Source of the DNA: Sporosarcina trichiuri
GTDB taxonomy: Bacteria; Bacillota; Bacilli; Bacillales_A; Planococcaceae
Length of the DNA stretch: 64,000 nt
Assembly (NCBI RefSeq): GCF_030406775.1
Contig: NZ_CP129119.1
Location: 1,832,001-1,896,000 of the forward strand
Reading direction: 5' to 3'
A program made the translations under genes and the position numbers. Numbering within the stretch: position 1 is the stretch's first letter; every line of letters starts with the position of its first letter. Below the pieces are notes generated by a model. That model saw only the letters and a list, made by a program, of their open reading frames with translations. It was not told the DNA's origin and did not search any database. Positions 1,800-60,584 of the stretch are shown one piece after another.

Positions 1800-1925
1800 A
1801 ATTATGTCCCGATGCCGATAAATTCGGCGATATGTCCGATACTTCACGCGAAGTGTCCGATAACTCCGGCGAACTGTCCGATACTGGCGGACATATGGCC
1901 GATACTTCACACGAACTGTCCGATA
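1800..1925 (-). repeat. TATCGGACA array 1 (6 x 21 bp, minus orientation)
   Basis: On the minus strand: five 21-bp units with cores TATCGGACA or TATCGGCCA, then the terminal unit TATCGGCATCG-GGACATAATT. It lies between the divergent ABC ATPase and oxidoreductase genes. Minus orientation, as in arrays 2 and 3. Spacers differ but each unit is exactly 21 bp. Confidence 0.95.
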
Positions 1926-2055
1926 CGCCGCCGCCACCGCTGCCCCCGTGCTGCCTCCACCGTGTAAAACTGCCGGCCGGGCCTCCGCCGCGGCCGCCGC
2001 TCCGTACATATACTACACTGAATTCACCAAACAACCGGAAAGGAACGATGCGATC

Positions 2056-2973
2056 ATGAAAGCGTTTGTCTGACGGAGCGAGGCCACCGACGATATCGTC
2101 CTGCAGGAGGTGGACCGTCCTTCGATCAGTGAACATGAATTGCTCGTCCGCGTCAGGGCGGTCGGTGTCGGCATCCACGATTCCTACTTCCTGCCGCAGG
2201 AGATGGCGTACCCGTATCCGATCGGCATCGAAGCAGCCGGCGTCATTGAACAGACCGGCAGCTCCGTGACGGACTATCAGACGGGAGACCGGATCGCCTT
2301 TGTCAGCATGATGCAGCCGAAGGGAGGCACATGGGCAGAGTATGCCGCTGTCACGGAGGACTCCCTGATCATCCCGATCCCTGACTCCATGGATTTCACT
2401 GAAGCCGCTGCCATCCCGGTCGCCGGCAACACAGTGCTCCATGCGATGACCGCGCTGCCGCTGCAGTCCGGCGATTCCGTCTTCATCGCCGGCGCGTCGG
2501 GCGCCATCGGCACATTCGCCATCCAGATCGCCAAGGCGCGCGGCTGGCATGTGGCGGGTTCCGCCTCTCCGAAGAACCATGACTATATGAAGTCGCTCGG
2601 GGCCGATAAAACGGTCGATTACCGGGACCCGGCATGGGCCGATGTGATCCGCAGCTGGCGGCCGGGCGGTGTGGACGCCGCCATCGCCATCCAGCCCGGC
2701 ACGGGGACCGACAGTATGCACGTCGTCAAGGACGGCGGTACAGTTATCACGATTTCAGGCGACCGTTTTCCGCCCGAGCGCGGCATCCATGTCGCATTCG
2801 TGCCGCACAAAGCGGATGTCCGCAGGCAGCTGGCGGAGTTGTTCGCGTCCATTTCGGACGGTCAGACACAGCTCGTCATCGAAAAGGTCTATCCATTCGA
2901 CCAGGGACTCAGCGCCCTCAAGAAGACGCAGACCCGGCATGCCAGAGGGAAACTCGTCCTCTCCCTGGAATGA
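2056..2973 (+). pseudogene. Quinone oxidoreductase / zinc-type alcohol dehydrogenase family (MDR), in-frame TGA at codon 6
   Basis: An NADPH:quinone-reductase-like MDR protein. The body is intact: GroES-like N-terminal part (AVGVGIHDSYFLPQ, PIGIEAAGVIEQTGSSV), then a Rossmann segment IAGASGAIGTFAIQIAKARGW and the C-terminal helix pattern ending KLVLSLE. The natural start reads ATG AAA GCG TTT GTC TGA CGG, that is MKAFV-stop-R, where relatives have a sense codon after MKAFV. A GGAAAGGA ribosome site precedes this ATG. The only rescue in frame is a GTG at 2110 with poor spacing to the AGGAGG overlapping it; starting there would cost about 18 residues and the first beta strand. Probably a recent nonsense mutation or a sequencing error; function uncertain. 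Confidence 0.75.
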
Positions 2974-3221
2974 CCTGCATGGAATTGCATACCCCAGTTT
3001 CATCATTCAGGCCGCGCCGCATGGATATGGGAACTTCCCCTGCCATGAGGTATTTTCATTCTTCTGAACTTTTTCTACGGAACACGATTATAATCATAAC
3101 ATTCGGGTATGACATATTGATAGCCTGTCAGATGCAATCTGGCAAGGTGCTAAATTCAACATGCAGGAAGGCAGACAGGCTGTGCCGTCTGTCCTTTTAC
3201 CATGAGGAGGGTGTGAACAAG

Positions 3222-4079
3222 ATGGCAGACGAGAAACGGACTCCCGATAAGGAGCCGCAGAGTTCACCGATGAGCCGCCGGACGTTCTTGAAAAACAGCG
3301 GAATGGTCGCCGGCGGCGTCGTCGGTGGTTCCCTGCTCGGCGGTCTGTTCATGAATGACCGCAAAAACGAGAAGGAGAAGAAAGAGGAGAAGACCGAAAC
3401 GACGACCTCTTTCCAGGAAGCCCGCATATTCTTCACACGCGAAGAGGACTTCAGAGCACTGGAAGCGGCAACCGAGTGCATTTTCCCTGAAGACCATCAC
3501 GGCTCCGGAGCGATCGGTCTCGGTGTTCCGTACTTCATCGACAAACAGCTCGCAGGCGATTGGGGCATCAACGCCCGGGATTACCGGAAAGGCCCCTTCA
3601 AAGTATACGAAGCCGGCCAGCTTGCGCCGGATGCCTCCACGGAAGCTGCCAACCCGAAACCGGTCGGGGCAAGCAGCCAGGGGGAAGACCCGTCGGATTC
3701 CCACTTGCAGGACCAGTCCATCCTGACCCGGCGTGAAATCTTTACATACGGTCTCCGCGCACTCAACAGCAGCAGCCAGGACCAGTATAAGAAGCCCTAT
3801 TACGAATTGGAGGAAGACCAGCAGATCGACCTGCTGCACAAATTCGAAGAGGGCAAAGCGAAGATGAAAGGCGTCCCGTCTTCCGTCTTCTTTGCGCTTC
3901 TGCGCCAGGCGACATTGGAAGGTGCCTATTCCGATCCGATCTACGGCGGCAACAAAAACATGGAAGGCTGGAAGATGCGCAATTATCCCGGCGCGTACCC
4001 GTCCTATATGGGCCTTCTGGAGAAAGATGAATTCGCGGAACTGAAGCCGGTCGCCCTGAAAGACACCCAGCATCATTAA
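3222..4079 (+). CDS. Gluconate 2-dehydrogenase subunit 3 family protein (gamma subunit) with Tat signal
   Basis: Small accessory subunit of a membrane-associated GMC-type sugar/alcohol dehydrogenase, 285 aa. The N-terminus holds a twin-arginine motif SRRTFLKNSGMVAGG followed by a hydrophobic Gly-rich stretch, so the subunit is exported folded by Tat, probably carrying its flavoprotein partner along. The rest matches the subunit-3 pattern: FFTREEDFRALEAATECIFPED near residue 70 and YGGNKNMEGWKMRNYPGAYPSY near the end. ATG 3222 is chosen because AGGAGG (3205-3210) is well spaced; the in-frame GTG at 3213 is too close. The flavoprotein gene starts 21 nt downstream. No cytochrome c subunit gene is present. 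Confidence 0.9.
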   Translation: MADEKRTPDKEPQSSPMSRRTFLKNSGMVAGGVVGGSLLGGLFMNDRKNEKEKKEEKTETTTSFQEARIFFTREEDFRALEAATECIFPEDHHGSGAIGLGVPYFIDKQLAGDWGINARDYRKGPFKVYEAGQLAPDASTEAANPKPVGASSQGEDPSDSHLQDQSILTRREIFTYGLRALNSSSQDQYKKPYYELEEDQQIDLLHKFEEGKAKMKGVPSSVFFALLRQATLEGAYSDPIYGGNKNMEGWKMRNYPGAYPSYMGLLEKDEFAELKPVALKDTQHH

Positions 4080-4100
4080 ACGAAACAGGAGGAATGCACC

Positions 4101-8720: not shown

Positions 8721-8846
8721 AATTGTGTCCGGATGCCGATAAATTCCGCGATATGGCCGATAACTCCCCGCATTTGTCCGATACTCCGTGCGGAATGTCC
8801 CATACTTCTGCTCAAACGTCCGATACTCTCCCTGATTTGTCCGATA
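8721..8846 (-). repeat. TATCGGACA array 2 (6 x 21 bp, minus orientation)
   Basis: Read on the minus strand: five core units (one TATGGGACA, one TATCGGCCA) and the terminal unit. It is array B of a composite element with array 3; the 127-bp linker is 8847-8973. With array 3 and the short flanks it fills the 590-bp gene-free interval 8654-9242. Confidence 0.95.
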
Positions 8847-8973
8847 CTCTGCCAGCGCCAGGGCCTGACTTGTCCCTTTAATCGCGCCATACAGGAAGCC
8901 TTCACCAGCCCGTTGCCGCGACCATGGACGGCTCCACAGAAAATGAGCACCGCGAGCACCAATCAGGAACTTG

Positions 8974-9099
8974 AATTGTGCCCGGATGCCGATAAATTCG
9001 GCGATATGGCCGATACTTCGCTTGAAATGTCCGATACATCGCCCCGACTGTCCGTTATCGCCGCCCATGTGTCCGATACTTCCCGTGATTTGTCCGATA
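8974..9099 (-). repeat. TATCGGACA array 3 (6 x 21 bp, minus orientation)
   Basis: Minus strand: five units then the terminal TATCGGCATCC-GGGCACAATT, followed by the linker tail. Array A of composite copy 1. Confidence 0.95.
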
Positions 9100-9840: not shown

Positions 9841-9989
9841 GATCATAAAACCCGGATTCTGCTCATAAAACTCGGAAATTGATCATAAATACCAGATACC
9901 GCTCATAAAGCCAGCAAAATGATCATAAATCTCGGAAAATGATCATAAAATCAGTTTTGCGCTCATAAACGCCAGAAAGTGATCATAAC
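9841..9989. repeat. Second repeat family: GMTCATAAA array, 8 units of exactly 20 bp
   Basis: GATCATAAA or GCTCATAAA recurs at 9841, 9861, 9881, 9901, 9921, 9941 and 9961, with a last, altered GATCATAACT at 9981. The 11-nt spacers vary and often hold a CYCGGAAA-like block. It lies between the GNAT start and the catalase terminator. No other copy in the window. The flanks, 9726-9840 and 9990-10130, hold no gene that I can see. Confidence 0.93.
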
Positions 9990-10130
9990 TTCACACAACC
10001 CCGTTGGATGCGACCCACCGATACCTCGGGCGCGGGGAAATAGCATGCCTGCCACTCTCCCGTGCCGCGATGAATGCTCTTCACCAGCCAGTCCTGAACA
10101 GTCCTCCACGAATTCACTTAAAGGCACATC

Positions 10131-10182: not shown

Positions 10183-11830
10183 TCAATAAGGATCGGCGTC
10201 TTTGCCTTTCTCGACGGCGTCTTCCGCCGCATCCTGCATCTTCGGTGTGCCGAAACCGAATTTGGACTTGCCCGATTCACGGCCCGGCACCTGCCCTTGC
10301 TCCATGTTCTTCATCTCTTCCGTTTTCTTCTGGATGCCTTCCTTCACACGGCGGCCATAGTCTTCGTCAGCCTGTGTGAAGTGGCCGATCATCGCTTCCT
10401 GGATGCGCACATCACACTGCGCGAGCGCGTCCGACAGATTTTTGATCAGTTCATCCCGCTCCCAGTCCTCGAACATCCGGTACGTTTCCCCGGCCTGGCC
10501 ATAGTTGTTCGGCCGGTCGATCGGCGCGCTCATCGCTGCTGCGTTGAACGTCGGCCGGTGCGGAGGACGTTCTGCGCCGTCCGCTTCCTGGAGGCCGCCC
10601 AGCATGGACGGTTCGTAGTTGATGTGCGGGTTGTCCCCCGATTCGTCGGGGTTCCGGAAGTCCATCTGACCGCGCTGCTGGTTCGTCCGCACGTGTGTCT
10701 TCGGTGCGTTCGCCGGCAGCTGCAGATAGTTCGAGCCGACACGGTACCGCTGCGTATCGGAATACGAGAATGTCCGGCCCTGCAGCATCTTGTCATCCGA
10801 GAAGTCCATCCCGTCGACGAGGACGCCCGTCCCGAATGCCGCCTGTTCGATTTCTGTATAGAAATCTTTCGGGTTCCGGTCCAGCACCATACGGCCGACC
10901 GGCAGCCATGGGAATTTGTCTTCCGGCCACAGTTTCGTATCATCGAGCGGATCGAAGTCGAGTTCCTCGTGATAGTCATCCTCCATGATCTGGACGAAAA
11001 GCTCCCATTCCGGATAATTTCCGCGCTCGATCGCCGTATACAGATCCTCCGTCGCATGGCCGACCGATTTCGCCTGGATGGCGTCGGCGTCTTCCTGCGT
11101 CAGGTTGCGGATGCCTTCCTTCGGCTCCCAGTGGTACTTCACGAGGACGGCCTCGCCTTTGTCGTTCACACCATTTATACGTATTGACGCCCGAACCCTG
11201 CATATGACGGTACGTCGCAGGAATGCCCCACGGCGAGAACAGGAATGTGATCATATGTGTCGCTTCCGGCGAACGCGACACGAAGTCGAACATCCGCTGC
11301 GGATTCGGCACGTTCGACGCGGGATCCGCTTTGAACGCATGGATCATATCCGGGAACTTCATCGCATCACGGATGAAGAAGATCTTCAAGTTGTTGCCGA
11401 CCAGATCCCAGTTGCCGTCCTCGGTATACATCTTCACTGCGAAGCCGCGCGGATCGCGTGCCGTCTCCGGAGAGTCTTTCGCTCCTCCGACTGTCGAGAA
11501 ACGCACGAGGACCGGTGTCCGCTTGCCGGCGCCCGAGAACACCTTCGCCCGTGTATACTTCTCAACCGGCTCATCGCCGACTTTGCCATACGTTTCGAAA
11601 AAGCCGTGCGCACCTGAACCGCGGGCGTGGACGACCCGTTCCGGAATCTCTTCCCGGTCGAAATGTGAAATCTTTTCAATGAAATGATAGTTCTCCAGCG
11701 TCGCCGGTCCGCGGTCGCCGATCGTCCGGATGTTCTGGTTATCCTGCACCGGATGGCCCTGCCGCGTCGTCAGCGTCTCCCGCTGCACATCGTCATTGTT
11801 CTGCTTGTTCTTGTTCTGTTCGTTATCCAA
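10183..11830 (-). pseudogene. katA: Monofunctional haem catalase with a single-base frameshift
   Basis: Clade-3-type catalase (H2O2 to water and oxygen), about 548 codons in two frames. The N-terminal part (TTG 11830, after GGGGGG) carries [12 protein letters not shown] with the catalytic His, VRFSTVGG, and the distal Asn segment [15 protein letters not shown]. The C-terminal part starts in another frame at [16 protein letters not shown] and carries the haem-Tyr region [12 protein letters not shown]. The break is one extra base at 10-bp precision: GTATAAATGG-T-GTGAACGAC on the minus strand, where removing the T at plus coordinate 11170 restores KWVNDKG. Either a genuine frameshift or a sequencing error; everything else is intact. 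A SigB-like promoter lies upstream. Confidence 0.88.
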
Positions 11831-15534: not shown

Positions 15535-15654
15535 CAGGGCTTCCTCCCTCACAAAGTCTGTCATCCCTCTTTCGACAAACCCCTGAACTATTCCTGTCCA
15601 TGTGGCTGAAAAATCCGCGGCCGCCGCGCGGGAGCGCTCCCTTCCCCGCCGCAG

Positions 15655-15801
15655 CCGCTCCATTCATCGATCGTACCGCTCCATTCCGCCGCGCGACCGA
15701 TCCATTCACCCATGCAATCGATCGTTCCAGAGCCGCAACCGCTCCATTCCGGCCAGCAACCGCTCCATTTCACCTCATGACCGATCCATTCCGTCCCATC
15801 A
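15655..15801. repeat. Third repeat family: CCGMTCCATTC array, 7 units of exactly 21 bp
   Basis: Units start at 15655, 15676, 15697, 15718 (altered, TCGATCGTTCC), 15739, 15760 and 15781. Core CCGCTCCATTC or CCGATCCATTC, then 10 variable nt usually ending in A. A degenerate eighth unit (GCGCTCCCTTCC) precedes it at 15634. It lies between the PlsY-like operon start and the comK terminator. No other copy in the window. Confidence 0.92.
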
Positions 15802-15861: not shown

Positions 15862-16410
15862 TCATTCGCCTTCATAATTCATGCCCTTCTCAGGCTTCTT
15901 CAAGATGTAGGACTGTGTGTAATCTTCCTTCACTTTCATCGCCTGACGGGTGTTCGTCTCGATCGAATACTGCAGCGTGCAGGCTTGGCGGACCCGTTCC
16001 TTGAACTGATACGGACTGAGCGGCAGCTCGGCGACACTGCCGTTCCGCAGACGGACGGTTACGGTCCCGCTGCTGTTGCACACATACGTATCGACATGGC
16101 CGACCGCAAGCCAGATGCAGGCATCCGCTTTCGGCGAACACGTCGGGGTCATATAGATGCTATGTGTTTTGCTGATGCTGACCGGCGCCATGAACGTCCT
16201 GCCGAGAAGTTCATCAGCCCCTTCCGCAGCCCCTTTCAGACTGGAACCGCCCCTGCGGAGGTTGTAGTCGATAATCTCCGTCGGCCTGCTGTCCACGAAC
16301 AGGATCTGGTCGCCTTCCAGAATCATCGACATCAGCCTGCCGCAGCTGTCGTAATACGGAAACAGGATACTTGTCTCTGTCGTGATCACATACTTCTCCA
16401 AAATCAACAT
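15862..16410 (-). CDS. comK: Competence transcription factor, ComK family
   Basis: A 182-aa DNA-binding protein; in Bacillus subtilis ComK (192 aa) switches on the DNA-uptake machinery. The body follows the family pattern: VDSRPTEIIDYNLRRGGSSLKGAAEGA, LGRTFMAPVSISKTHSIYMTPT, SPKADACIWLAVGHV (the conserved C.W....HV), NGSVAELPLSPYQFKERV. The C-terminal tail is shorter than in B. subtilis. ATG 16410 follows AGGGGGA. No neat paired AAAA-N5-TTTT box is present upstream, though the region has A- and T-tracts; autoregulation is therefore not shown. Confidence 0.85.
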   Translation of the reverse strand: MLILEKYVITTETSILFPYYDSCGRLMSMILEGDQILFVDSRPTEIIDYNLRRGGSSLKGAAEGADELLGRTFMAPVSISKTHSIYMTPTCSPKADACIWLAVGHVDTYVCNSSGTVTVRLRNGSVAELPLSPYQFKERVRQACTLQYSIETNTRQAMKVKEDYTQSYILKKPEKGMNYEGE

Positions 16411-21871: not shown

Positions 21872-21997
21872 TATCGGACAAATCGTGTTGGGTATCGGAC
21901 ATTTGGCGTGCAGTATCGGACACTTCATCGGAAGTATCGGACATTTGGGTCAAACTATCGGACACTTCACCGAATTTATCGGCATCCGGGCACAATT
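21872..21997 (+). repeat. TATCGGACA array 4 (6 x 21 bp, plus orientation)
   Basis: Five perfect TATCGGACA cores, then the terminal TATCGGCATCC-GGGCACAATT. It sits between the CMD terminator and the NCS1 permease terminator, which face each other. First array in plus orientation going rightward. Confidence 0.96.
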
Positions 21998-28318: not shown

Positions 28319-28444
28319 TATCGCACGCTTCGCCGTAGATATCGGACATTTGGCGTGCAGTATCGGACAGTTCATCGGAAGTATCGGACATTTCGGACAA
28401 ACTATCGGACACTTCACCGAATTTATCGGCATCCGGACACAATT
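28319..28444 (+). repeat. TATCGGACA array 5 (6 x 21 bp)
   Basis: The first unit is degenerate (TATCGCACG); four cores are perfect; terminal TATCGGCATCC-GGACACAATT. It lies between divergent genes, 73 bp from the start of the next one. Confidence 0.95.
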
Positions 28445-30005: not shown

Positions 30006-30152
30006 TATCGGCGATTGCTTGTGGAGTATCGGCCATTTCACGCGGGATATCGGCCATAACTTGTGAACTATCGGACACTTCACGTGGGATAACGGACACA
30101 ACCTGTGAACTATCGGACACTTCGCTGAATTTATCGGCATCCAGGCACAATT
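30006..30152 (+). repeat. TATCGGACA array 6 (7 x 21 bp, the longest)
   Basis: Seven units. The first three cores are degenerate (TATCGGCGA, TATCGGCCA twice), one is TAACGGACA. Terminal TATCGGCATCC-AGGCACAATT. It lies between two facing terminators. Confidence 0.95.
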
Positions 30153-32930: not shown

Positions 32931-33056
32931 TATCGGACATTCGGCGCGAGATATCGGACACTTCGCCGGACTTATCGGACATTTGGCGCAAAGTATCGGA
33001 CATTTGGCGCAAAGTATCGGACATTCCACCGAATTTATCGGCATCCAGACACAACT
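32931..33056 (+). repeat. TATCGGACA array 7 (6 x 21 bp)
   Basis: Five perfect cores; units 3 and 4 are identical including their spacers (TTTGGCGCAAAG). Terminal ends ACACAACT rather than ACACAATT. It lies between divergent genes. Confidence 0.95.
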
Positions 33057-35015: not shown

Positions 35016-35120
35016 TATCGGACAAATGATGGCCGGTATCGGACATTTCACGTAGAGTATCGGACATTTGGCGCGAAGTATCGGACATTCCACCGAATTT
35101 ATCGGCATCCAGACACAATT
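35016..35120 (+). repeat. TATCGGACA array 8 (5 x 21 bp)
   Basis: Four perfect cores and terminal TATCGGCATCC-AGACACAATT, then the tail TGGTGCTCAC...GTTCGTTTTCTGT. Array A of composite copy 2. Confidence 0.95.
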
Positions 35121-35243: not shown

Positions 35244-35348
35244 TATCGGACAAATTATAGCCGGTATCGGACATTTGATGCAGCGTATCGGCCATTTCGC
35301 CGGGCTTATCGGACACTTCGCGGAATTTATCGGCATCCACACACAATT
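35244..35348 (+). repeat. TATCGGACA array 9 (5 x 21 bp)
   Basis: Three perfect cores, one TATCGGCCA, then terminal TATCGGCATCC-ACACACAATT. Array B of composite copy 2. Confidence 0.95.
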
Positions 35349-35469: not shown

Positions 35470-36435
35470 TTATGTGTGCTTCGCGAGTTCCATGTGCAAT
35501 TGCATTGAATATGTTCTGCCGCGTTTATTTCCGACAGCCGTCAGTTCCATAGCACGCAGGAGACGGAGTGCTGTTCTGGGACAGTCAATTCCCAGCAGCG
35601 CACGGCATGCCGCATTGGTCAGCGGCTTACCCGTCAGCCAGAACCAATCTCGGATGGCCTGCTCGTGGGCAGTCATCGAGCGGCACTTGCACGCCGGGCA
35701 ATACCATCCTTTGCCGCGTTTCCACATACCGAGCCGGTCGCAGTCAGGACAGGCAACCCCTCCTTTGATCACTTCGGTTGGGACATCGAACCTCTCACAG
35801 ATCGGTTTGTGATTGAAACCCTGATGGCTTTCCAAGATCCGTTGGCCGAGCAGCGCCAATTCATCTGTCGTCAGACCGCCGGAGCCAGTCATCAGCTCCC
35901 CGACATATCCCGGCACCAGTTTTGGAAACAAAGTAGGAATTTCAGTATTCGGCAGAGTGATACGCTGCTTGGCATATGCCATGACAACACAGCCATAAAC
36001 AGGCAGATGGACTCCGCGGGCGCGCAGCCAGCCCTCGAACAGCTTGCATGTGGTGTGCACCTGTGCGAGCGGACTCAGGAAACCGCTGAGGGTCCCGTCG
36101 TCCGCTGTCCGGATCAGCTGTGGCGGGTTCTCTGTCACCACCAGATCCCCCGCCATATTCTTCACTTCACAAATCAAGGCGAATTGCTCGGTCAGCAAGA
36201 GGGTATCCATTTGGAACAGGGTGTGGGAAACAAGGGAGAGATCATGGAACTCAAGGATTTCGTGGGGAAACTTGTAGGTGTTCAGCACGCGGTCCAGTTC
36301 AAGTTCACCGCCGTAACCTGCTTTGGCGGCAGACAGCCGGCTTTGCAGATTGGGGGAGACGGGGTGAGACCGGGGAATTCGTCTGACAGCAGCCTCCAGC
36401 CCTTCGATCAGGACGGGTGCTGTCCGCTCTTTCAT
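35470..36435 (-). CDS. NERD domain protein with zinc ribbon
   Basis: A 321-aa protein. The NERD (nuclease-related) domain spans about residues 40-145: GYGGELELDRVLNTY near 40 and TLLLTEQFALICEVKNMAGDL near 78, the latter carrying the E-x-K nuclease core. A zinc ribbon follows near 235-257 (CPDCDRLGMWKRGKGWYCPAC), then a C-terminal helical part ending RTYSMQLHMELAKHT. Nuclease activity is plausible from the residues but unproven for the family. ATG 36435 is taken; a GTG 15 nt upstream, abutting AAAGGAA, is the alternative. Monocistronic; both sides are array-bearing. Confidence 0.88.
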   Translation of the reverse strand: MKERTAPVLIEGLEAAVRRIPRSHPVSPNLQSRLSAAKAGYGGELELDRVLNTYKFPHEILEFHDLSLVSHTLFQMDTLLLTEQFALICEVKNMAGDLVVTENPPQLIRTADDGTLSGFLSPLAQVHTTCKLFEGWLRARGVHLPVYGCVVMAYAKQRITLPNTEIPTLFPKLVPGYVGELMTGSGGLTTDELALLGQRILESHQGFNHKPICERFDVPTEVIKGGVACPDCDRLGMWKRGKGWYCPACKCRSMTAHEQAIRDWFWLTGKPLTNAACRALLGIDCPRTALRLLRAMELTAVGNKRGRTYSMQLHMELAKHT

Positions 36436-36564
36436 CAGTATGGGTGTCACTTCCTTTCATGTTCCTTATTATCATATCACGCTTTTCAGATATCACAATT
36501 CACTCAGCATGTTCCTGTGAGTTCACTTGCATGAGGGGCCGCCTATCCGCCAGATCAAGGCTGT

Positions 36565-36669
36565 TATCGGACACTTGGCGCGAGATATCGGACAGTTCAC
36601 CGGACTTATCGGACACTTGGCGCAAAGTATCGGACACTTCGCCGAATTTATCGGCATCCGGACACAATT
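36565..36669 (+). repeat. TATCGGACA array 10 (5 x 21 bp)
   Basis: Four perfect cores and terminal TATCGGCATCC-GGACACAATT. It lies upstream of the NERD gene and downstream of the terminator of the next minus-strand gene, outside both units. Confidence 0.95.
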
Positions 36670-39862: not shown

Positions 39863-39967
39863 TATCGGACACATACCGCTGGATATCGGACACTTGCCGC
39901 GGCGTATCGGACATATCGGGCAAAGTATCGGACATTTCGCTGAATTTATCGGCATCCAGGCACAATT
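39863..39967 (+). repeat. TATCGGACA array 11 (5 x 21 bp)
   Basis: Four perfect cores and terminal TATCGGCATCC-AGGCACAATT. It lies between the upstream region of the 91-aa gene and the terminator of the M20 gene. Confidence 0.95.
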
Positions 39968-41510: not shown

Positions 41511-41636
41511 TATCGGCCGTAACTTGTGAACTCTCGGACATTTTGCGTGAAGTATCGGACATTCACCTTGCCATATCGGACATATGGCGAAGCATATCGG
41601 ACATTTCACCGAATTTATCGGCATCTGCACACAATT
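41511..41636 (+). repeat. TATCGGACA array 12 (6 x 21 bp)
   Basis: First two cores degenerate (TATCGGCCG, TCTCGGACA), three perfect, terminal TATCGGCATCT-GCACACAATT. It lies between divergent M20 and pepF genes. Confidence 0.94.
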
Positions 41637-43607: not shown

Positions 43608-43733
43608 TATCGGACGTTTCGTGTGAAGTATCGGCCATTTCGTGTGAACTATCGGACACCTCGCCCGAGTTATCGGACAGAACTTGTGAACTATCGGCCA
43701 CTTCATCGAATTTATCGGCATCCAGACACAATT
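43608..43733 (+). repeat. TATCGGACA array 13 (6 x 21 bp)
   Basis: Cores TATCGGACG, TATCGGCCA, TATCGGACA twice, TATCGGCCA; terminal TATCGGCATCC-AGACACAATT. It is flanked on both sides by facing terminators. Confidence 0.94.
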
Positions 43734-44502: not shown

Positions 44503-45576
44503 CTGCCGCAGTATCTCGGCTTCTTCGGCGGCTCGCGGTTCATCCCGATCGTCACGGCGTTTTCATCCATCATCCTCGGAACAGTCATGTATTTCGTCTG
44601 GCCGATTTTCCAGAACCTGATCGCGGAAGCCGGCAACCTCGTCAACGCAACCGGCGTCGTCGGCACGTTCCTGTACGGTTTCATACTCCGGATGCTCGGA
44701 CCGTTCGGCCTGCACCATATCTTCTACCTGCCGTTCTGGCAGACAGGTCTCGGCGGCGCGCTCGAGATCGGCGGTCATCTCGTCCAGGGGACGCAGAACA
44801 TCTTCTTCGCCCAGCTGAGTGACCCGACGACGACCCGGTTCTTCGAGGGCACGTCCCGATTCATGTCCGGCCGCTTCATCACGATGATGTTCGGCCTGCT
44901 CGGTGCAGCGCTTGCGATCTACCATACGGCAAAGCCCGAACACAAAAAGGTCGTCGGCGGCCTCATGCTGTCGGCGGCACTGACCTCGTTCCTGACCGGG
45001 ATCACGGAACCGCTCGAGTTCTCGTTCCTGTTCGTCGCGCCGGTCCTCTATCTGATCCATGCGATCTTTGACGGACTCGCCTTCATGATGGCGGATATTC
45101 TCAACATCACGATCGGCCAGACATTCTCGGGCGGCTTCATCGACTTCATCCTGTTCGGGGTGCTGCAGGGACAGGACAAGACGAACTGGCTGTATGTCAT
45201 CCCGGTCGGCATCGTCTGGTTCTTCCTGTACTACTTCACGTTCAAGTTCGTCATCCGGAAATTCAACTTCAAAACCCCGGGCCGGGAAGATGAAAAACCG
45301 GCAGCTGACGGCGAAGCAGTACCGTCCGTCGACCCGCAGGGCAGCCGTCCGCACCAGATCATCGACGCACTCGGCGGCAAAGGCAACATCCAGGATCTCG
45401 ACAACTGTGCGACCCGTCTCCGTGTGACGGTCAGCGACCCGGCGCTCGTCGATCAGAACGCGTTCGCTTCTACCGGCAGCAAAGGGGTCATCATGAACGG
45501 CACTGGCGTCCAGGTCGTCTACGGCCCGCACGTGTCGATCATCAAGAACGAAGTGGAAGAGGAGCTGGAACGATGA
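44503..45576 (+). pseudogene. PTS glucose/N-acetylglucosamine-family EIICB, N-terminally truncated
   Basis: C-terminal three quarters of an EIICB permease. In frame from 44503: LPQYLGFFGGSRFIPIVTAF (the conserved LPxYLGFFGG-RF motif), then helices and ITEPLEFSFLFVAPVLY, a linker, and an EIIB domain with phosphorylated Cys in [10 protein letters not shown] near the end. An in-frame TAG at 44461 blocks any extension, so roughly the first 100 residues and the start are missing. The next possible ATG (44587) would leave still fewer helices. Transport is presumably lost. The stop overlaps the nanE start in an ATGA, so it once formed an operon with nanE. Confidence 0.78.
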
Positions 45577-46335: not shown

Positions 46336-46461
46336 TATCGGACACTTAGCCGGAGGTATCGGACAAATGGCGCGCTGTATCGGACACTTTCGCGGAAGTA
46401 TCGGACAGTTGGCGCACACTATCGGACATTCCGCCGAATGTATCGGCATCCAGACACAATT
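46336..46461 (+). repeat. TATCGGACA array 14 (6 x 21 bp)
   Basis: Five perfect cores and terminal TATCGGCATCC-AGACACAATT, then tail TGGTGCTCGC and GCTCGTTTTCTGT. Array A of composite copy 3. Confidence 0.95.
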
Positions 46462-46593
46462 CAAGAGCCTGAATGGTGCTCGCTGGCGCTCGTTTTCTGT
46501 CGAGCCCCCTCATCCGCGGCGACCTCTCCGAGTGCTTGCCACCCCTCGTGCCGCGCAGAAAACCGGCAAGCCCGCTCTTCTCCCCGCGTGCTG

Positions 46594-46719
46594 TATCGGC
46601 CATAACTCGGGAAGTATCGGACACTCGGCTTGGCATATCGGACACTTCATGCGAAGTATCGGACAGTTGGCGCACACTATCGGACATATCACCGAATGTA
46701 TCGGCATCCATACACAATT
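46594..46719 (+). repeat. TATCGGACA array 15 (6 x 21 bp)
   Basis: First core TATCGGCCA, four perfect, terminal TATCGGCATCC-ATACACAATT. Array B of composite copy 3. One spacer (GTTGGCGCACAC) is shared with array 14. Confidence 0.95.
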
Positions 46720-48048: not shown

Positions 48049-48264
48049 GAATCTCGTCCCCTTTTCAATGAAAAATTATGTACGGCGTCCGGTGTTCACA
48101 CGTCCGAAGGTATGCCATTTCCGGTCTCACCCATTCAACAACCATACCACGGCAGTTTTCGAAAAATGCTGTTTTTATGAAATTGCAAGACCGCATGAAT
48201 CCTTTTTTATGCGATTGGCGTTCCACGACACGGGAAGCTGGCCAGCGTTCGTCCGCCCGGGCCA

Positions 48265-48390
48265 TATCGGACAAATCACGGGCGGTATCCGACAGATCGC
48301 CATAAGTATCGGACAATCCGCCGGAGGTATCGGACACTCGGCACGCACTATCGGACACTTCGTCGAATTTATCGGCATCCGGACACAATT
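48265..48390 (+). repeat. TATCGGACA array 16 (6 x 21 bp)
   Basis: Second core TATCCGACA, others perfect; terminal TATCGGCATCC-GGACACAATT. It lies between the upstream region of the RidA gene and the terminator of the AAA+ gene. The remaining interval 48049-48264 holds the RidA promoter; no gene is seen. Confidence 0.95.
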
Positions 48391-48454: not shown

Positions 48455-51400
48455 TCAACTTTCCAATAAAACAAGATCCTCCTGCGTGATTTCCTTTGCT
48501 GCAGGAAGGCTGTCACCATTCCGGCTCGCGACCGCCAGCCGGTAATCCACCTTCCGTGTCATCTCCCGCGCCACCTTCTTCGCGAGACCGGCGTTGCCGA
48601 AGTTTTCATCCCGCGCAGCATACAGCTGCTCGTAGTGCGCAAGCAGCACTTCCTCCGCTTCCTCCGACAGCGTATAGCCTTCCGCCGACAGCTCGGTGAT
48701 CGCGAGCAGCTCCTCCGGCGTATAATCGTCGAAATGCAGCGTCAGCCCGAACCGCCGGCGCAGCCCCGGGTTGCTGTCGAGGAATTGTTCCATCTCCCGC
48801 TCATACCCCGCTGCAAGCACAAGAAACTCCCCCTGCCGGTCGGACATCTGCTTCAGCAGGACGTCGACGGCTTTCTGGCCGTAATCATTCGCCCCGCCGC
48901 CTGCGAGTGTATATGCTTCGTCGATGAACAGCGCACTGCCCATCGCCCGCTCGATCTGTTCCGCCGTCCGCTTTTCCGTCTCACCGATGTGCGTGCCGAC
49001 CAGGCTGCTGCGGTCGACTTCGATCAGCTCGCCCCGCTCCAGCAGGCCGAGCGCCTGATAGATGCCGGCGAGCACGCGGGCGACTTCCGTCTTGCCCGTG
49101 CCCGGCTTGCCGATCAGCAGCGTATGGTTCATCAGTTTATCGGCCGGATGCCCTTCGCGGCGGTAATACCGTGTCAGCTCGATCAGTTCGTCGATCTCCG
49201 CCTTCACTTGCGCCAGGCCGATGAACCGGTGCAGTTCCTCCCGTTTCCGTGCGAGCAGCGCTTCGTCGATCGGCACCTCATAGCCCGCGTGCTCCCGCTC
49301 ACCCGCAGCACGCAAGACGTCTTCCTCTTCCAGCGTCGTCAGTACCGTTTCGGTCCATTCATCACGCGGAAGTGCAGCAATCCGCATCGATTGCGCCTGC
49401 GTGATCTGTTCAAGCAGCGTACGCACCATCCGGGCGTTGCCGAACGTTTCACCCCGCGTCCGGTACCGCGATGTGAGCACGTCCCGCACCGCCCGCTCCG
49501 CCGCAGCCGTCAGTGAATAGCCGTTCCCGCATTGCATCAGGAAAATCTCCATCAGCTCATCCGGTGTATAATCCGTAAACGTGATCTGTTCCGTGAACCG
49601 GTCATTCAGCCCCGGATTGGCTGCGAGGAAGCGCTCCATGTCCGCCGGGTAGCCTGCAGCGATCACGACAAACCCGCCGCGATGGTTTTCCATTGCAGGC
49701 ACGAGCGTGTCGATGACCTTCTTGCCATAGTCATTGCCGGCTGCGGTCCCCGGAGCCAGCGTGTAGGCTTCGTCGATGAACAGCACACCGCCCATCGCTT
49801 CCTTGATTTTCGCCTTTGTCAGCTCCTCGGAACTTCCGACGTGCGTGCCCACGAGGTCTTCGCGCTTCACCTCGACGAGATGGCCCTTTTCAAGCAGGCC
49901 GAGCCACTTGAAGAACGCACCCATCAGCCGTGCGACAGTCGTCTTCCCCGTGCCGGGATTGCCCGCGAACACCATATGGGGCGCCAATGTCGGGCTTGCG
50001 TTCAACCCCCGTTCCGCCTTGAACTGGTTGACCTCCATGAGACTCATCATGCTCTTCAGCTTATATTTGACGTCCGACAGCCCGATGAACCCATCCAGTT
50101 CTTCCATGAGGAGGCCGAGCAGCTGCGGATCACTGAACGCCATGCTGTCCACAGGCGGCGGAGACTCTGAGACACCCGCCGGCCGCGCCATCGCAAGCTT
50201 CGTGTTGATCAGCTGCGGCTCGCTGCCATCTGCCGCGGCCAAATCGCCTCCGCGGTTTTCCGCAAACAGGCAGTCTTCAAGGACAGGCGCCGACTGTTCC
50301 AGCCGCAGACCCGCTTTCATACCGCCCATAACCTGCACTGCCCGGAACGCAGCGGACGGGCATGCCTGCAGGATGACCTGATCATCCGCATGGCTGTGGA
50401 ACTTGGCATCTGCCACCGACACTTGCTGCACGCGTATCAATTCCAGCCCAGATGCACTGCCGTCGTAGATTTCGCACACCGTCATCGAAATCTCCGCGGA
50501 TTCCTCCGCAGCGAGCTGTGTCCGCCTGTTCCGGAACAGCGCCGTCCGTTCCAATGAAACACGCGCACCCCGGCCCGCCAGCAGCCCGTTCTTCCCGCTG
50601 TTCGTTATCCGGCAGTCGGTGATCTCCGCAGCTGCCGCATAGCCGAGCAGGACGTTCGAACCCTGATGTGCGGATACCGTACTCTCGGACGCCTGAAGTG
50701 ACGATTGTTTCACGAGCACGCCGGAACTGCCGCCGCCCGCGACTTCGGAGGCAGACAGCGTCACATCCGATTCATCGGACGCCGATACCTGCACCCCGGC
50801 ATGCCGGCGGATGACCGAATCGGACACCCGGAGCCGGCTGTCAGCGACAGAGATCCCTCTCTCCCTGCCGTCCGTCACATCACAGTCGATCAGCGTCAAT
50901 GCGCTTTCATTCCTCGCCGACAGCTGCGTGCTCTGGTGATAGTGGACCTTCGAACCGAGGAAGGTGCACGCGGAGCGATCGCACAGCAGACCGCCCGCAG
51001 CCCCTGACAGCAGCTCAGTCCCCTTGACAGTCACCGCACTGCCGTCCGTGCAGAAAAGCTGGTCGCCTGCCTGCCCTTTGAACCGCGAGGCGGAAATCCC
51101 GGCCTTCGATCCGCTCACCATCATACCGGCCGCTCCGCCGTCTTCAAGCACACAGGATACCAGCTGCACATCCGAACCATCAGCCGCTTCGATCTGCGCC
51201 GCTGCCTGCGTCCGGAAGACACAATTCCGCAGGACACCGTCTGATGCGTCGAATGAAAACCCCGCACCGTTGCCGACGAGGACACGGACGTCATCCGCCT
51301 CCACCGAACTTTCCTGTTCCGCACGGAGCTGCGCGCCGCCATTGCCGATGAACGAACTTTTCGTCAGGATCGCCCGGCTGCCCCCCGTCAGCAGAAGTCC

Positions 51401-51928
51401 TTCCTGCTGGCCGCCGAGAACGCCGCACTCCGTCAGCGCAGCCTGCCCGCCGTCGCGCACTGAAATCTGCGCAGTTTCGACCGTCTCCTCGACGATGCAG
51501 CCGAACAGGACCAGCCGCCCGGACACCCGGATGCCGCCGAGATTCTTCCGGAACACCGTCTGCTTTGCGGACACCTTGGCCCCCGCTTCCACCTGCAGGG
51601 GATGCCCCTGGATACCGGAGAACAGGCAGCGGCGGAGGGTCACCTGTCCGGAATCGGCCTGGAGTCCTGCAGGCTGCGCGTCCGCGCCGATCGTGAGCCC
51701 CTCAAGATGGACTTCCCCGGCCGCAGCGACCCGCACACCGCCCGCAAGACGGACAGCATCCGGCTCTTTGCCGGCACTGCTGAGCGTCAGCGGCTTATCT
51801 ATAAGGAGAGTCTCGTAATAACTCCCATTTCCGATTTCAATACGGTCCCCCGGCTGCGCATCGTCAAGCGCAGCCTGTATCGCTGTGCAGGCTGCGTCCT
51901 GGTCCCCTGATACTTGAATCACCGCCAA
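48455..51928 (-). CDS. Giant protein: right-handed beta-helix domain fused to two CbxX/SpoVK-type AAA+ ATPases
   Basis: 1157 aa. Residues about 10-600 form a pectate-lyase-like parallel beta-helix of some 25 rungs, opening AIQAALDDAQPGDRIEIGNG and repeating short turns such as GLLLTGGSRAILTKSSF. Two AAA+ modules follow. The first has Walker A GNPGTGKTT and Walker B GVLFIDEAYTL; the second has GKPGTGKTE and ALFIDEAYTL, with arginine-finger regions NDRF and RRRF. This ATPase type includes SpoVK, CbbX and EccA of type VII secretion. TTG 51928 is chosen since GGAGG lies 7 nt upstream; an ATG at 51961 has no site. No signal peptide; stands alone. Role unknown: perhaps remodelling a surface- or glycan-like target recognised by the helix. 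Confidence 0.9.
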   Translation of the reverse strand: MAVIQVSGDQDAACTAIQAALDDAQPGDRIEIGNGSYYETLLIDKPLTLSSAGKEPDAVRLAGGVRVAAAGEVHLEGLTIGADAQPAGLQADSGQVTLRRCLFSGIQGHPLQVEAGAKVSAKQTVFRKNLGGIRVSGRLVLFGCIVEETVETAQISVRDGGQAALTECGVLGGQQEGLLLTGGSRAILTKSSFIGNGGAQLRAEQESSVEADDVRVLVGNGAGFSFDASDGVLRNCVFRTQAAAQIEAADGSDVQLVSCVLEDGGAAGMMVSGSKAGISASRFKGQAGDQLFCTDGSAVTVKGTELLSGAAGGLLCDRSACTFLGSKVHYHQSTQLSARNESALTLIDCDVTDGRERGISVADSRLRVSDSVIRRHAGVQVSASDESDVTLSASEVAGGGSSGVLVKQSSLQASESTVSAHQGSNVLLGYAAAAEITDCRITNSGKNGLLAGRGARVSLERTALFRNRRTQLAAEESAEISMTVCEIYDGSASGLELIRVQQVSVADAKFHSHADDQVILQACPSAAFRAVQVMGGMKAGLRLEQSAPVLEDCLFAENRGGDLAAADGSEPQLINTKLAMARPAGVSESPPPVDSMAFSDPQLLGLLMEELDGFIGLSDVKYKLKSMMSLMEVNQFKAERGLNASPTLAPHMVFAGNPGTGKTTVARLMGAFFKWLGLLEKGHLVEVKREDLVGTHVGSSEELTKAKIKEAMGGVLFIDEAYTLAPGTAAGNDYGKKVIDTLVPAMENHRGGFVVIAAGYPADMERFLAANPGLNDRFTEQITFTDYTPDELMEIFLMQCGNGYSLTAAAERAVRDVLTSRYRTRGETFGNARMVRTLLEQITQAQSMRIAALPRDEWTETVLTTLEEEDVLRAAGEREHAGYEVPIDEALLARKREELHRFIGLAQVKAEIDELIELTRYYRREGHPADKLMNHTLLIGKPGTGKTEVARVLAGIYQALGLLERGELIEVDRSSLVGTHIGETEKRTAEQIERAMGSALFIDEAYTLAGGGANDYGQKAVDVLLKQMSDRQGEFLVLAAGYEREMEQFLDSNPGLRRRFGLTLHFDDYTPEELLAITELSAEGYTLSEEAEEVLLAHYEQLYAARDENFGNAGLAKKVAREMTRKVDYRLAVASRNGDSLPAAKEITQEDLVLLES

Positions 51929-52105: not shown

Positions 52106-52231
52106 TATCGGACACTTCCCGCGAAGTATCGGACACATCGCGCAGAGTATCGGACAGATCCCCCGACTTATCGGACACTTCGCACGACATATCGGACACT
52201 TCGCCGAATATATCGGCACCCGGACACAATT
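52106..52231 (+). repeat. TATCGGACA array 17 (6 x 21 bp)
   Basis: Five perfect cores and terminal TATCGGCACCC-GGACACAATT. It lies upstream of the beta-helix AAA+ gene. Confidence 0.95.
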
Positions 52232-53632: not shown

Positions 53633-53716
53633 TATCGGACAGTTGGCGGGTGATATCGGACACTTCAACGAATGTATCGGACACTTCCCCGAATTTATCG
53701 GCATCCGGACACAATT
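53633..53716 (+). repeat. TATCGGACA array 18 (4 x 21 bp, the shortest complete one)
   Basis: Three perfect cores and terminal TATCGGCATCC-GGACACAATT, then the TGGTGCTCGC / GCTCGTTTTC tail. Array A of composite copy 4. Confidence 0.95.
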
Positions 53717-53840: not shown

Positions 53841-53966
53841 TATCGGACATATGGCGGGACGTATCGGACATATGGCGCGATGTATCGGACACTTCAACGG
53901 ATGTATCGGACACTTGAGCCAGCATATCGGACACTTCCCCGAATTTATCGACATCCGGACACAATT
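53841..53966 (+). repeat. TATCGGACA array 19 (6 x 21 bp)
   Basis: Five perfect cores, then terminal TATCGACATCC-GGACACAATT, followed by a partial tail (GCTCGTTTTCCGCGG). Array B of composite copy 4. Confidence 0.95.
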
Positions 53967-55206: not shown

Positions 55207-55332
55207 TATCGGACAAATCCCGTGACGTATCGAACATATGGACGGACTTATCGGACATTTGGCGACGGGTATCGGACATTTCAGCCGGGATATCGGACAC
55301 TTCGCCGAATATATCGGCATCCGGACACAATT
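55207..55332 (+). repeat. TATCGGACA array 20 (6 x 21 bp)
   Basis: Second core TATCGAACA, others perfect; terminal TATCGGCATCC-GGACACAATT. It lies between a terminator and the SLH gene's promoter, which follows within about 110 bp. Confidence 0.95.
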
Positions 55333-56572: not shown

Positions 56573-56601
56573 ATATGCACGCAGAACTGGCGCATGCCGC
56601 G

Positions 56602-56727
56602 TATCGGACAATTCGACGGACATATCGGACACTTGGCGCAGCGTATCGGACACTTGGACCTGAGTATCGGACATTTCGGCGAAAGTATCGGACACTTCGC
56701 CGAATTCATCGGCATCCGGGCACAATT
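56602..56727 (+). repeat. TATCGGACA array 21 (6 x 21 bp)
   Basis: Five perfect cores and a terminal unit that begins CATCGGCATCC-GGGCACAATT. It lies between convergent genes. Confidence 0.95.
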
Positions 56728-56754
56728 CACCTCGGACCGAAGCAGCCACCAACG

Positions 56755-57598: not shown

Positions 57599-57724
57599 TA
57601 ACGGACATATTCCGTGAAGTATCGGACACTCGGCACGATGTATCGGACAGTTCAGCGGACGTATCGGACACTTCGCGGGAGTTATCGGACACTTCGCCGA
57701 ATTTATCGGCATCCGCGCACAATT
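57599..57724 (+). repeat. TATCGGACA array 22 (6 x 21 bp)
   Basis: First core TAACGGACA, four perfect, terminal TATCGGCATCC-GCGCACAATT; then the tail TGGTGCTCGC and GCTCGTTTCCTGT. Array A of composite copy 5. Confidence 0.95.
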
Positions 57725-57854: not shown

Positions 57855-57980
57855 TATCGGACATATCCGGCGAAGTATCGGACAGTTCGCCGCACTTATC
57901 GGACACTTGGCAAGGAGTATCGGACAGTTCAGCCGGCCTATCGGACATATCGCCGAATTTATCGGCAGCCGAACACAATT
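57855..57980 (+). repeat. TATCGGACA array 23 (6 x 21 bp)
   Basis: Five perfect cores and terminal TATCGGCAGCC-GAACACAATT, then tail TGGTGCTCGC and GCTCGTTTTCTGT. Array B of composite copy 5. Confidence 0.95.
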
Positions 57981-58032
57981 CAACCCCCTGATTGGTGCTC
58001 GCTGCCGCTCGTTTTCTGTCAAAACACCAAGC

Positions 58033-58755: not shown

Positions 58756-59032
58756 GCCTGTCTCCCCCTTTTCACTTCCATTCTTTTATTACACTATACG
58801 AAATCGTCTTGATTCCGACAATCCCTCCGACCATCTACCACCGGACCTGTGCAAGCCGTCTGATGCATCCTGCTGCTCGTTGTGATAAGTTAGCAGCAGA
58901 TGCCCGCACGCGGTAAGACTTGAATGCGGCGCTTGGCATTCCGGAACCATCGATTGAATGCATACTAAATACACATAAGACCGAGCCAGACAGACCTCAT
59001 CGCTGCCGGCACTGACAAGGAGACGATTCAAT

Positions 59033-59485
59033 ATGGAAAAACGACCACTCGCAACGCTGCAAGTAAAAGGAAAAATGGAAGACGGCTTGAAGAACAGCAT
59101 TCATGTCAGGGACTTACCCCCATTCACCGTGGATGAACCCGAGCGGCTCGGCGGTACGAATGCCGGTCCGAATCCATTGGAATACTTTCTCGGCGCCTTA
59201 TCCGCCTGTACATCCATCATGGCAGCCTATGTCGCAAAGGACATGGATTTCAACTACACTGATTTTACGTACGAGTCATCCGGAACGCTGGATCCGCGCG
59301 GCTTCAAAGGTGTGGAAGGCGTGCAGACCTACTTCCAGACGGTCCAGCTGGATGTGGTCATCGAAACCGAGGAGACAGAAGCCAGATTGGAGCAGTTCAG
59401 AGAGACCGTCGAATCCAGATGTCCGCTCTACAATCTGCTGAAAGACGCAGGCGTGGAAGTGACCGGCCGCTGGTCGAAGAGGTGA
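59033..59485 (+). CDS. OsmC family peroxiredoxin-like protein
   Basis: A 150-aa OsmC/Ohr-fold protein, which reduces organic hydroperoxides with a Cys pair. First Cys is in ALSACTSIMAAYVAK near residue 59, second in VESRCPLYNLLKDAG near 130, both at family positions; GGTNAGPNPLEYFLGAL precedes the first. Ohr-like Arg and Glu are not clearly placed, so this is the general OsmC/YhfA branch. Start ATG 59033 with GGAGACG upstream. Monocistronic. Confidence 0.92.
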   Translation: MEKRPLATLQVKGKMEDGLKNSIHVRDLPPFTVDEPERLGGTNAGPNPLEYFLGALSACTSIMAAYVAKDMDFNYTDFTYESSGTLDPRGFKGVEGVQTYFQTVQLDVVIETEETEARLEQFRETVESRCPLYNLLKDAGVEVTGRWSKR

Positions 59486-59606
59486 TTGGTTCCCCCCAAC
59501 CGTTCAGGTTTTGAGAAGACGCCTTCCGATAGCCCTCCAACAAGATGGGTAATTAGAATGGCGTCTTTTCCTATCCTTCGATTTTACAGTGCTCCCTCGA
59601 CACCGC

Positions 59607-59640
59607 GAAAAAGACCGCCATCCCCTCGGGACAGCGGTCT
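59607..59640 (-). terminator. Intrinsic terminator of the second SDR gene
   Basis: GACCGC and an inner TCCC pair with GCGGTC and GGGA, followed on the minus strand by TTTTTCG. Confidence 0.85.
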
Positions 59641-59665
59641 CCTTTTGCGCACTATCTTCACATGA

Positions 59666-60391
59666 TCAGAACGGATTCGTCGCGATCAGCGTAGCCGTCT
59701 TCGTATAGACACGCGGGTGCAATTTCAGCTGGCTGACAACCATCTCTGCGATATCCTCCGGCTGGATGGTTTTGGACGTGTCGTTTTCTTTGATCAAGTC
59801 CAGATCGAAGGCCAGATCGGTCGCCACCGTGCTCGGCGCGAGGGCGGAAACCCGGATATTATTCCTGCGTACTTCCTGCGCAAGTGACTCCGTGAAGCCG
59901 ATCACCGCGAATTTCGACGCACTGTACGCACTCGACGTCGCAGCGCCGTTCAATCCGTTCGTCGACGCGATCGTCACGATATCGCCGCCGTTCTTCTCGA
60001 TGAGCTGCGGCAGGACGGCGCGCGTCACATGATACGTCCCCATCACATTCACGTCCAAAATCCGTTTCCATTCCGCCGGTTCCATCTCAAGCACGGTGCC
60101 GAACGAAGCGATCCCCGCGTTGTTGATGAGTATATCAGCTGTGCCGAGTGCGTCCGTCAATGAAGCAACTGCTCTCTCCGCCTCATCCTGTGATGAAACG
60201 TCCGCCATCGCATACGCAGCGTTCACACCGAGCGCTTCAATCTCCGCCGCAACATCCTTCAGCGCGGACTCCGTGCGCGCCAGCAGTCCGACATGGACGC
60301 CTTCCTTCGCGAGTGCAATCGCCGTCGCCCGGCCTATGCCCCGCGCCCCTCCTGTGATGAACGCCACTTTCCCTTGCAATGATTGTGCCAT
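59666..60391 (-). CDS. SDR family oxidoreductase (3-oxoacyl-ACP reductase-like)
   Basis: A 241-aa classical SDR: cofactor loop [20 protein letters not shown] near residue 13, LLARTE after the second strand (an Arg, suggesting NADPH), NNAGIAS near 88, catalytic Ser in IASTNGLNG and Tyr/Lys in [12 protein letters not shown]. It resembles YdfG/FabG-like ketoreductases; it is not in a fatty-acid operon. ATG 60391 with AAGGGG. The upstream reading frame is not used. Monocistronic. Confidence 0.92.
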
Positions 60392-60539
60392 CAGATATAC
60401 CCCTTTTCGATTTTGATTCTGGTCATTTCCAGTATACAGCGCCTCGTGGGCCACTTCACGGAATCGGTTTGACAGATTTTTCACTTGCAAGGAACCAGAT
60501 GTGCAGCTTGGCACTTGTCTCTTCGGCTGCCTCGGTCTG

Positions 60540-60584
60540 TATCGGACATTTGGCGAAAGGTATCGGACTTTTCAGCCGACATAT
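60540..60584 (+). repeat. TATCGGACA array 24, truncated (2 units plus TAT)
   Basis: One perfect unit, one with TATCGGACT, and then three bases (TAT) of a third; the terminal unit is missing. Beyond it the sequence is unrelated and leads into a 5'-truncated gene. The only incomplete array in the window. Confidence 0.85.

Follow-up and report, generated by a model that had tools for sequence, protein, structure and literature searches.

A 64,000-base window of the Sporosarcina trichiuri chromosome (positions 1,832,001-1,896,000 of the single 3,056,487-base contig of this genome, here G000) contains 24 arrays of head-to-tail 21-bp units, here called family A, in which the core TATCGGACA alternates with a variable spacer. 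We suggest, at a probability of about 0.45, that these are iteron-like, helically phased docking arrays for putative sequence-specific DNA-binding proteins at operon boundaries. Phase, a common unit number, intergenic position, conserved cores with free spacers, loci shared between genomes, and a core that is specific to the species are direct observations. A preliminary description of the window had already reported the arrays, and that finding is real and part of something larger than was stated: it mentioned neither two window arrays with other cores (families C and D), nor the species-specific core at shared loci, nor a link to the gain and loss of gene blocks.

Phase, length and anatomy of the arrays

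The window has 90 exact cores where 0.37 would be expected, and none of 100 shuffles reached so high a count. Where successive exact cores lie less than 110 bp apart, the spacing is 21 bp in 59 cases, 42 bp in six, and 63 bp in one, with no other value. The reported arrays are confirmed, and no phase break was seen in the window. Most array finders step by 21 bp, and the phase was therefore verified separately. Over 464 kb of G000, in stretches selected because the family is present, 54 arrays were counted (from a list of 55 pieces, two of which belong together as a 7-unit array containing a 20-bp step). The 174 spacings below 70 bp in this sample comprise 161 of 21 bp, eight of 42 bp, four of 63 bp, and one of 20 bp; the last is the sole phase break and falls among 21-bp units inside a 7-unit array at 1644161-1644306.

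By our count, the 24 window clusters include 18 six-unit arrays, three of five units, one of four, one of seven, and a two-unit fragment. The earlier figures were 17, four, one, and one for six, five, four, and seven units among 23 arrays; the six-unit mode stands, and the size classes shift with the rule for counting the end unit. With a single finder for all genomes, six-unit arrays make up 40 of 54 in G000, 23 of 34 in a genome of the same species (G121, taken as Sporosarcina koreensis S-K12), 13 of 17 in G065, 17 of 20 in G019, and 5 of 8 in G021. Array length and phase are strongly centered, not absolute, and 126 bp is the modal length, not a rule. At the long end, one S-K12 array (L026, 7226-7477) has 12 units with a repeated 42-bp double unit, indicating that expansion can proceed two units per step.

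The near-invariant last unit noted earlier is present in 23 of the 24 window clusters, ending in CACAATT in 21 of those 23. No common upstream end was found among 37 six-unit arrays. Among 255 units (up to two core changes allowed), core letters are 90%-99% fixed. Spacer letters are far less informative; they share a degenerate consensus, and their mean identity within G000 is 0.51, i.e., they are not homogenized.

None of the 32 arrays in the surrounding 144 kb overlaps a predicted gene by more than 30 bp (shorter overlaps were ignored). Among intergenic gaps of at least 100 bp, arrays occupy 8 of 11 convergent, 6 of 18 divergent, and 11 of 24 co-directional ones, and the excess in convergent gaps is not significant (p 0.06). 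Arrays occur in every orientation relative to adjacent genes. Some arrays form tandem pairs, with linkers in G000 of ~123-151 bp, plus two shorter ones of 58 and 74 bp (gaps in the array list), and in relatives of 68-71 bp; a similar motif is found in the linkers of G000 and of the relatives.

Distribution along the chromosome

A strict pattern for the junction of the penultimate and last units matches 48 places genome-wide, and a looser unit-pair pattern matches 225; the reversed-pattern controls gave none in either case. Few copies elsewhere would have spoken against a genome-scale family, and the 48 junctions show many. In total, G000 holds at least 59 family A arrays (the 54 in 464 kb and five further places elsewhere), so the family is genome-scale, as proposed, but uneven: 33 of the 54 lie within 1.80-1.94 Mb (140 kb). 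Similarly, 27 of 43 listed unit pairs of G065 lie within 479-617 kb, and 20 of 30 listed unit pairs of G019 are on one 215-kb contig. These array-rich stretches hold orthologs of genes in the G000 region, indicating that the clustering is shared despite strongly rearranged gene order.

A strand switch inside the window prompted the idea of a replication terminus or fork trap. This was rejected: dnaA lies at 2,396,185, ~0.5 Mb away, and orientation runs alternate on the array-region side of dnaA. A Firmicute dif pattern has no match in the window at up to three mismatches.

Inheritance and species-specific cores

Comparison with S-K12 shows that the arrays are inherited with their loci. Of 25 G000 array loci in the neighborhood that both genomes cover, 24 are matched by an array in the syntenic interval of the other strain, on the same strand every time (two S-K12 intervals each serve two G000 loci, so the 25 loci correspond to 23 intervals). 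This holds both where the flanks are 96%-100% identical and where they are only 70%-91% identical on at least one side. The only locus without an S-K12 array is the two-unit fragment at 60540, which shows no clear target duplication by eye. In 14 array pairs with flanks at least 96% identical, cores differ at 4 of 621 positions and spacers at 19 of 828, with 13 of the 19 spacer differences concentrated in one array; this set leaves out nine pairs with unequal unit numbers, seven loci with unequal array numbers, and some unplaced loci.

Identity to S-K12 is 81%-90% over ~1.79-1.88 Mb and 96%-99% over 1.88-1.908 Mb, with a sharp boundary near window position 48254. This region, rich in arrays, has probably undergone exchange of a large divergent segment.

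Some loci are shared by species with different cores. G000 and G019 have in common the order gene, array, UvrD-like gene, array, glycine-betaine-type transporter genes, MarR-like gene, array, chemoreceptor gene. G065 has the first two of these array loci, beside the UvrD-like gene; no array was seen at the third. At shared loci, the arrays have the same orientation relative to the genes, and the core is TATCGGACA, AATCGGCCA, or AATCGGCAA depending on the species. Using one finder, positions 7-8 of the core read AC in 89% of G000 units and 92% in G121, CC in 90% in G065 and 89% in G021, and CA in 67% or AA in 28% in G019. Core letter 1 is T in 98% of units in G000, and A in 86% in G065 and 82% in G019. 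Given that the spacers are not homogenized, copying of whole units cannot by itself explain a uniform core, and recognition in trans can. Recognition by a predicted trans-acting protein would be expected to leave just this pattern, with the core uniform and the spacers free at loci that are inherited.

Related families and taxonomic range

Family A is not the only one. A lag scan of the 464 kb of G000 (four copies of an 8-base core, periods 12-33) returned 54 matches at period 21, nine at period 20, and none at any other period. These belong to family A and to two further families, C (core G[AC]TCCATTC, 21 bp) and D (cores GATCATAAA and GCTCATAAA, 20 bp). Unlike family A, family D has matches all along the chromosome (40 candidates scored). 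It occurs with the same core in 16 of 68 genomes of the genus and in none of 193 genomes from other genera of the order. In relatives, a family B (TTCTCCGACAC type) is found upstream of family A, with the same end. Further cores with period 20 or 21 were found in other Sporosarcina species and in two genomes of other genera of the family (G289 and G399). In G399, arrays with the unrelated cores TTATTCTCGTTT and TATTTCGACTCTGCAC, both of period 21, stand back to back (L130, 14038-14307). In stretches L060 and L061, a similar long hairpin-like repeat lies just downstream of family C arrays at 17591-17740 and 3986-4091. The scans of relatives also gave a few matches at periods 12, 18, 24, 27, 30, 33, and 36 and at 40, taken as coding repeats (multiples of three) and as twice 20, respectively, although not each was checked. 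Of 16 stretches taken from the family's other genera, one has a further core at period 20 or 21 and one a weak A-rich match; 16 stretches from other families gave no period-20 or period-21 arrays, a masked run aside.

By pattern, family A occurs in 12 of the 68 genomes of the genus; in two of these it is a lone match, possibly due to chance (the reversed-pattern control matched one genome). In a class-wide scan of 398 genomes, 16 match, compared with 11 for the reversed control. Beyond G000, the matches in G399 (five, four of them consecutive) and G289 (two) appear genuine; two isolated matches occur in G294 and one in each remaining genome. Arrays are thus present in related Planococcaceae, where the preliminary description had proposed to search. 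A scan of genome contigs for the array end returned 36 stretches, of which 24 are from S-K12 and 12 are single matches in other organisms, these last with never more than two phased cores in a run.

The favored explanation

Under the docking model, each 9-bp core would be occupied by a DNA-binding protein that recognizes its sequence, probably a separate protein for each core family. Units of 20 or 21 bp are close to two helical turns, which would align all copies on one face of the DNA, where the bound proteins, usually six, could contact each other. The role that we think most likely is a fixed nucleoprotein block at operon boundaries, for insulation or local folding, at loci that may also tolerate, or promote, the gain and loss of gene blocks. 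We infer the protein, its cooperativity, and its role. A cooperative DNA-binding protein, with a possible nucleoid, looping, or segregation role, had been proposed at the outset, and the phase and core conservation fit that idea, but no such protein was found.

Several observations weigh against this explanation. Besides the fact that no binding protein was identified in this analysis, 56 of the 68 genus genomes lack a match to the family A pattern, indicating that the family is dispensable. The core of family D is unchanged across the 16 genus genomes that have it, so a change of core is not general. Unit number differs by whole units between close strains, which implies that slippage or unequal exchange occurs, and one 20-bp step, outside the window, stands among the 174 spacings. 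As regards the earlier argument against random slippage, a break in phase is uncommon (the window has none, and 174 spacings over 464 kb have one), but unit numbers do change. In addition, some arrays of families A and D fold better than shuffles as RNA, and the mobilizing enzyme of a parasitic repeat could maintain an identical core and phase. Two rivals are serious, a parasitic repeat and a recombination junction. Both are compatible with docking, and a slowly moving parasitic family is the main one.

Alternative explanations

As a parasitic interspersed repeat (BOX- or MITE-like), the family would spread by copying, have no host role, and owe its core and end to the mobilizing enzyme that reads them. 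We consider this possible, at clearly lower odds than docking. The arrays are intergenic, clade-limited (the 12 of 68 genomes above), and modular, with conserved linkers and tandem pairs. Neighboring arrays are more alike than other pairs in G000 (p 0.003; 52 of the 55 pieces, those with at least 84 bp per array), with p values of 0.11 in S-K12, 0.06 in G065, and 0.09 in G019. Pneumococcal BOX repeats are read as parasitic interspersed repeats by Croucher et al. (PMC3049150), and like the arrays they are small, interspersed, and clade-limited, with a modular build and variable tandem inner modules. BOX elements have boxA and boxC ends and predicted RNA stem-loops, whereas the arrays have a 20- or 21-bp phase, a dominant number of six, and no fold kept across species. 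The boxA-boxB(n)-boxC layout is not seen here; instead, there is a conserved last unit and a pair linker (BOX sequences were not compared directly). Against a parasitic origin, the 24 of 25 loci common to two strains, and the few common to species, indicate little recent movement. By itself, this explanation also leaves the period of 20 or 21 across different cores, and the six-unit mode, without a reason. No autonomous partner came to light in a comparison of one array pair with plasmid and phage records, which gave no match. Nor was a transposon or known transposon end recognized, in a search limited to that comparison and without a systematic search for terminal repeats.

If the arrays are recombination junctions, blocks of genes would enter and leave between direct-repeat arrays in the manner of attC cassettes, by a recombinase or by homologous exchange. 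The integron attC and VCR sites are roughly array-sized, are uniform in orientation over long stretches, and have gene blocks in between; unlike them, the arrays are phased direct repeats with genes in both orientations. Orientation does occur in runs (12 runs across 44 loci, p 0.004), despite mixed gene strands. Evidence also comes from 12 listed differences between G000 and S-K12. In all eight indels with a length difference above 1 kb, the empty site carries an array. Two smaller indels, of 0.7-0.8 kb, lack one, giving 8 of 10 overall; the remaining differences are one extra array copy and one diverged gap of almost equal length. Arrays are present in 25 of 53 gaps of at least 100 bp in G000 and in 24 of 55 in S-K12, and at this base rate (~0.46) the chance of 8 of 8 is p ~0.002 and of 8 of 10 is p 0.03. 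It should be noted that gaps with arrays also rank among the widest, and at a base rate of 0.6, as in gaps of at least 200 bp, the chance of 8 of 8 is p 0.017. Three blocks are flanked by arrays at either end, with nothing but arrays at the empty site (in G000, a permease/hydantoinase block of 6.3 kb and an S9-peptidase block; in S-K12, a 1.3-kb block). For the other five of the eight large blocks, a family A array is present at just one end. Between the two arrays around the 6.3-kb block, the shared fraction of spacer letters is 0.83, the top value among non-tandem pairs (tied by one distant pair).

A NERD-domain gene lies between arrays in G000 and, at a different place but again between arrays, in G019 and G065; their site corresponds in G000 to a place with one array. 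The NERD protein was considered as an array-specific factor and rejected, being present in 64 of the 68 genus genomes and hence unlinked to arrays. Given how common it is, the gene looks like a passenger.

Block gain, loss, or movement at array loci exceeds expectation; the association is real and modest. As the main explanation of the arrays, junctions still seem unlikely to us, somewhat more so than a parasitic repeat. No recombinase was found among the window genes scanned (43 of 51 predicted genes; none was sought elsewhere), nor was an integron integrase, for which the rest of the genome was not searched. The spacers are also probably too different for efficient homologous exchange.

A transcribed RNA element, with structure in each unit, is improbable. 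Folding of 37 six-unit family A arrays of G000 as RNA gave a mean z of -2.3 relative to shuffles on the reverse strand (-1.6 with cores fixed and spacers shuffled) and -0.6 on the forward strand, and nine family D arrays gave -2.1 forward and -0.8 reverse, so that the favored strand differs between the two families. With DNA parameters, z for family A is -0.4 on both strands. The reverse-strand value is not kept in relatives (+1.0 in G019, -0.7 in G065, -0.6 in G037), and with same-strand values from -2.3 to +1.0 no stem-loop is shared across species. Rfam has no match in the window, and the arrays take any orientation to genes. A hairpin within the unit was rejected because the top column pairs by mutual information are mostly neighbors or near the unit end, not stem partners. 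A CRISPR array was likewise rejected, given the degenerate consensus shared by the spacers and the lack of a Cas family among the scanned window genes.

Remnants of protein-coding heptad repeats (21 bp being seven codons) have a negligible chance: one S. koreensis reverse frame reads, by eye, as hydrophobic-Ser-Asp heptads, but this reading was rejected because of the period-20 families such as D; in addition, cores are fixed at all codon positions, linker lengths differ by single bases, and none of the 32 arrays examined overlaps a predicted gene by more than 30 bp.

Comparison with known systems

The REP/BIME elements of Escherichia coli are palindromic units at operon boundaries for which binding of a chromosome protein has been proposed; the arrays differ in being phased direct repeats. 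Closer in architecture are the RctB iterons of the Vibrio cholerae chromosome 2 origin, six head-to-tail 12-mers spaced by 10 or 11 bp (PMC6090056). There, the DnaA box is reported to lie at such a distance from the first of six iterons that both proteins fall on one face of the helix, and shifts of 5 bp impair function (PMC5872114). The two systems are alike in their head-to-tail direct repeats of about two helical turns per unit (20 or 21 bp here), and they differ in that the V. cholerae iterons belong to a single origin beside the initiator gene, whereas here one family has at least 59 arrays and there are several families. No origin or initiator was recognized with the arrays (no initiator among the 43 scanned window genes, and dnaA at 2.396 Mb). 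The nearest architecture is that of the V. cholerae chromosome 2 iterons, which the arrays resemble in geometry, and the nearest genomic behavior is that of BOX. We file the arrays under neither, as there is no recognized initiator or origin, no boxA- or boxC-like end, and no cross-species fold. The preliminary description knew of no such system, and a search of the open PMC literature also turned up no account, which is no proof that none exists; as far as searched, the arrays are undescribed.

Features of the window

Coordinates are collected in Table 1. The family C array lies directly 3' of a comK-like gene (15862-16410, minus strand). Among other genes, a catalase (10183-11169) and a PTS EIIC gene (44587-45576) align with no more than the C-terminal portion of the respective Pfam models, and so look N-terminally truncated or called short. 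The gene at 48455-51928 encodes a 1157-aa protein with beta-helix (NosD-like) repeats and two SpoVK-like AAA domains.

Table 1. Arrays and associated features, in window coordinates
Feature	Position	Strand	Basis
Family A, 6 units	1800..1925	-	core clusters
Family A, 6 units, tandem pair with 8974	8721..8846	-
Conserved linker of paired arrays 8721/8974	8847..8973	-	linker alignment
Family A, 6 units	8974..9099	-
Family D, core GATCATAAA / GCTCATAAA, often alternating, period 20 bp	9841..10001	+
Family C, core G[AC]TCCATTC, period 21 bp, further units readable to ~15820	15634..15739	+
Family A, 6 units, left edge of 6.3-kb block missing in S-K12	21872..21997	+
Family A, 6 units, right edge of 6.3-kb block; units 2-6 almost as at 21872	28319..28444	+
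Family A, 7 units (S-K12: 6)	30006..30152	+
Family A, 6 units, left edge of S9-peptidase block missing in S-K12	32931..33056	+
Family A, 5 units, paired with 35244	35016..35120	+
Family A, 5 units, left of NERD gene	35244..35348	+
NERD-domain gene between arrays	35470..36450	-
Family A, 6 units, right of NERD gene	36544..36669	+
Family A, 5 units (S-K12: 6)	39863..39967	+
Family A, 6 units (S-K12: 8)	41511..41636	+
Family A, 6 units (S-K12: two arrays, 6 and 5)	43608..43733	+
Family A, 6 units, paired with 46594	46336..46461	+
Conserved linker of paired arrays 46336/46594	46462..46593	+	linker alignment
Family A, 6 units (S-K12: 7)	46594..46719	+
Family A, 6 units	48265..48390	+
Family A, 6 units	52106..52231	+
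Family A, 4 units (S-K12: 5)	53633..53716	+
Family A, 6 units	53841..53966	+
Family A, 6 units	55207..55332	+
Family A, 6 units	56602..56727	+
Family A, 6 units (S-K12: 5, exactly one unit missing)	57599..57724	+
Family A, 6 units	57855..57980	+
Two-unit family A fragment within ~75 bp missing in S-K12	60540..60581	+

Implications

A broader picture, speculative and on balance doubtful, is that some Planococcaceae may mark their chromosomes addressably: several helix-phased, mostly six-site families, each with a co-evolving binding protein, would mark operon boundaries and dock the exchange of gene blocks, and one region would serve as an integrase-free cassette store. If a protein does read the arrays, they would be a chromosome-wide class of binding platform in this clade for which no description was found. 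The site code, differing by species at shared loci, would then be a natural experiment in the co-evolution of a protein and its sites, and the arrays a ready map for chromatin immunoprecipitation (ChIP). If the arrays are junctions for gene exchange, they would show one way for a cassette region to arise on a Gram-positive chromosome in the absence of any known integron.

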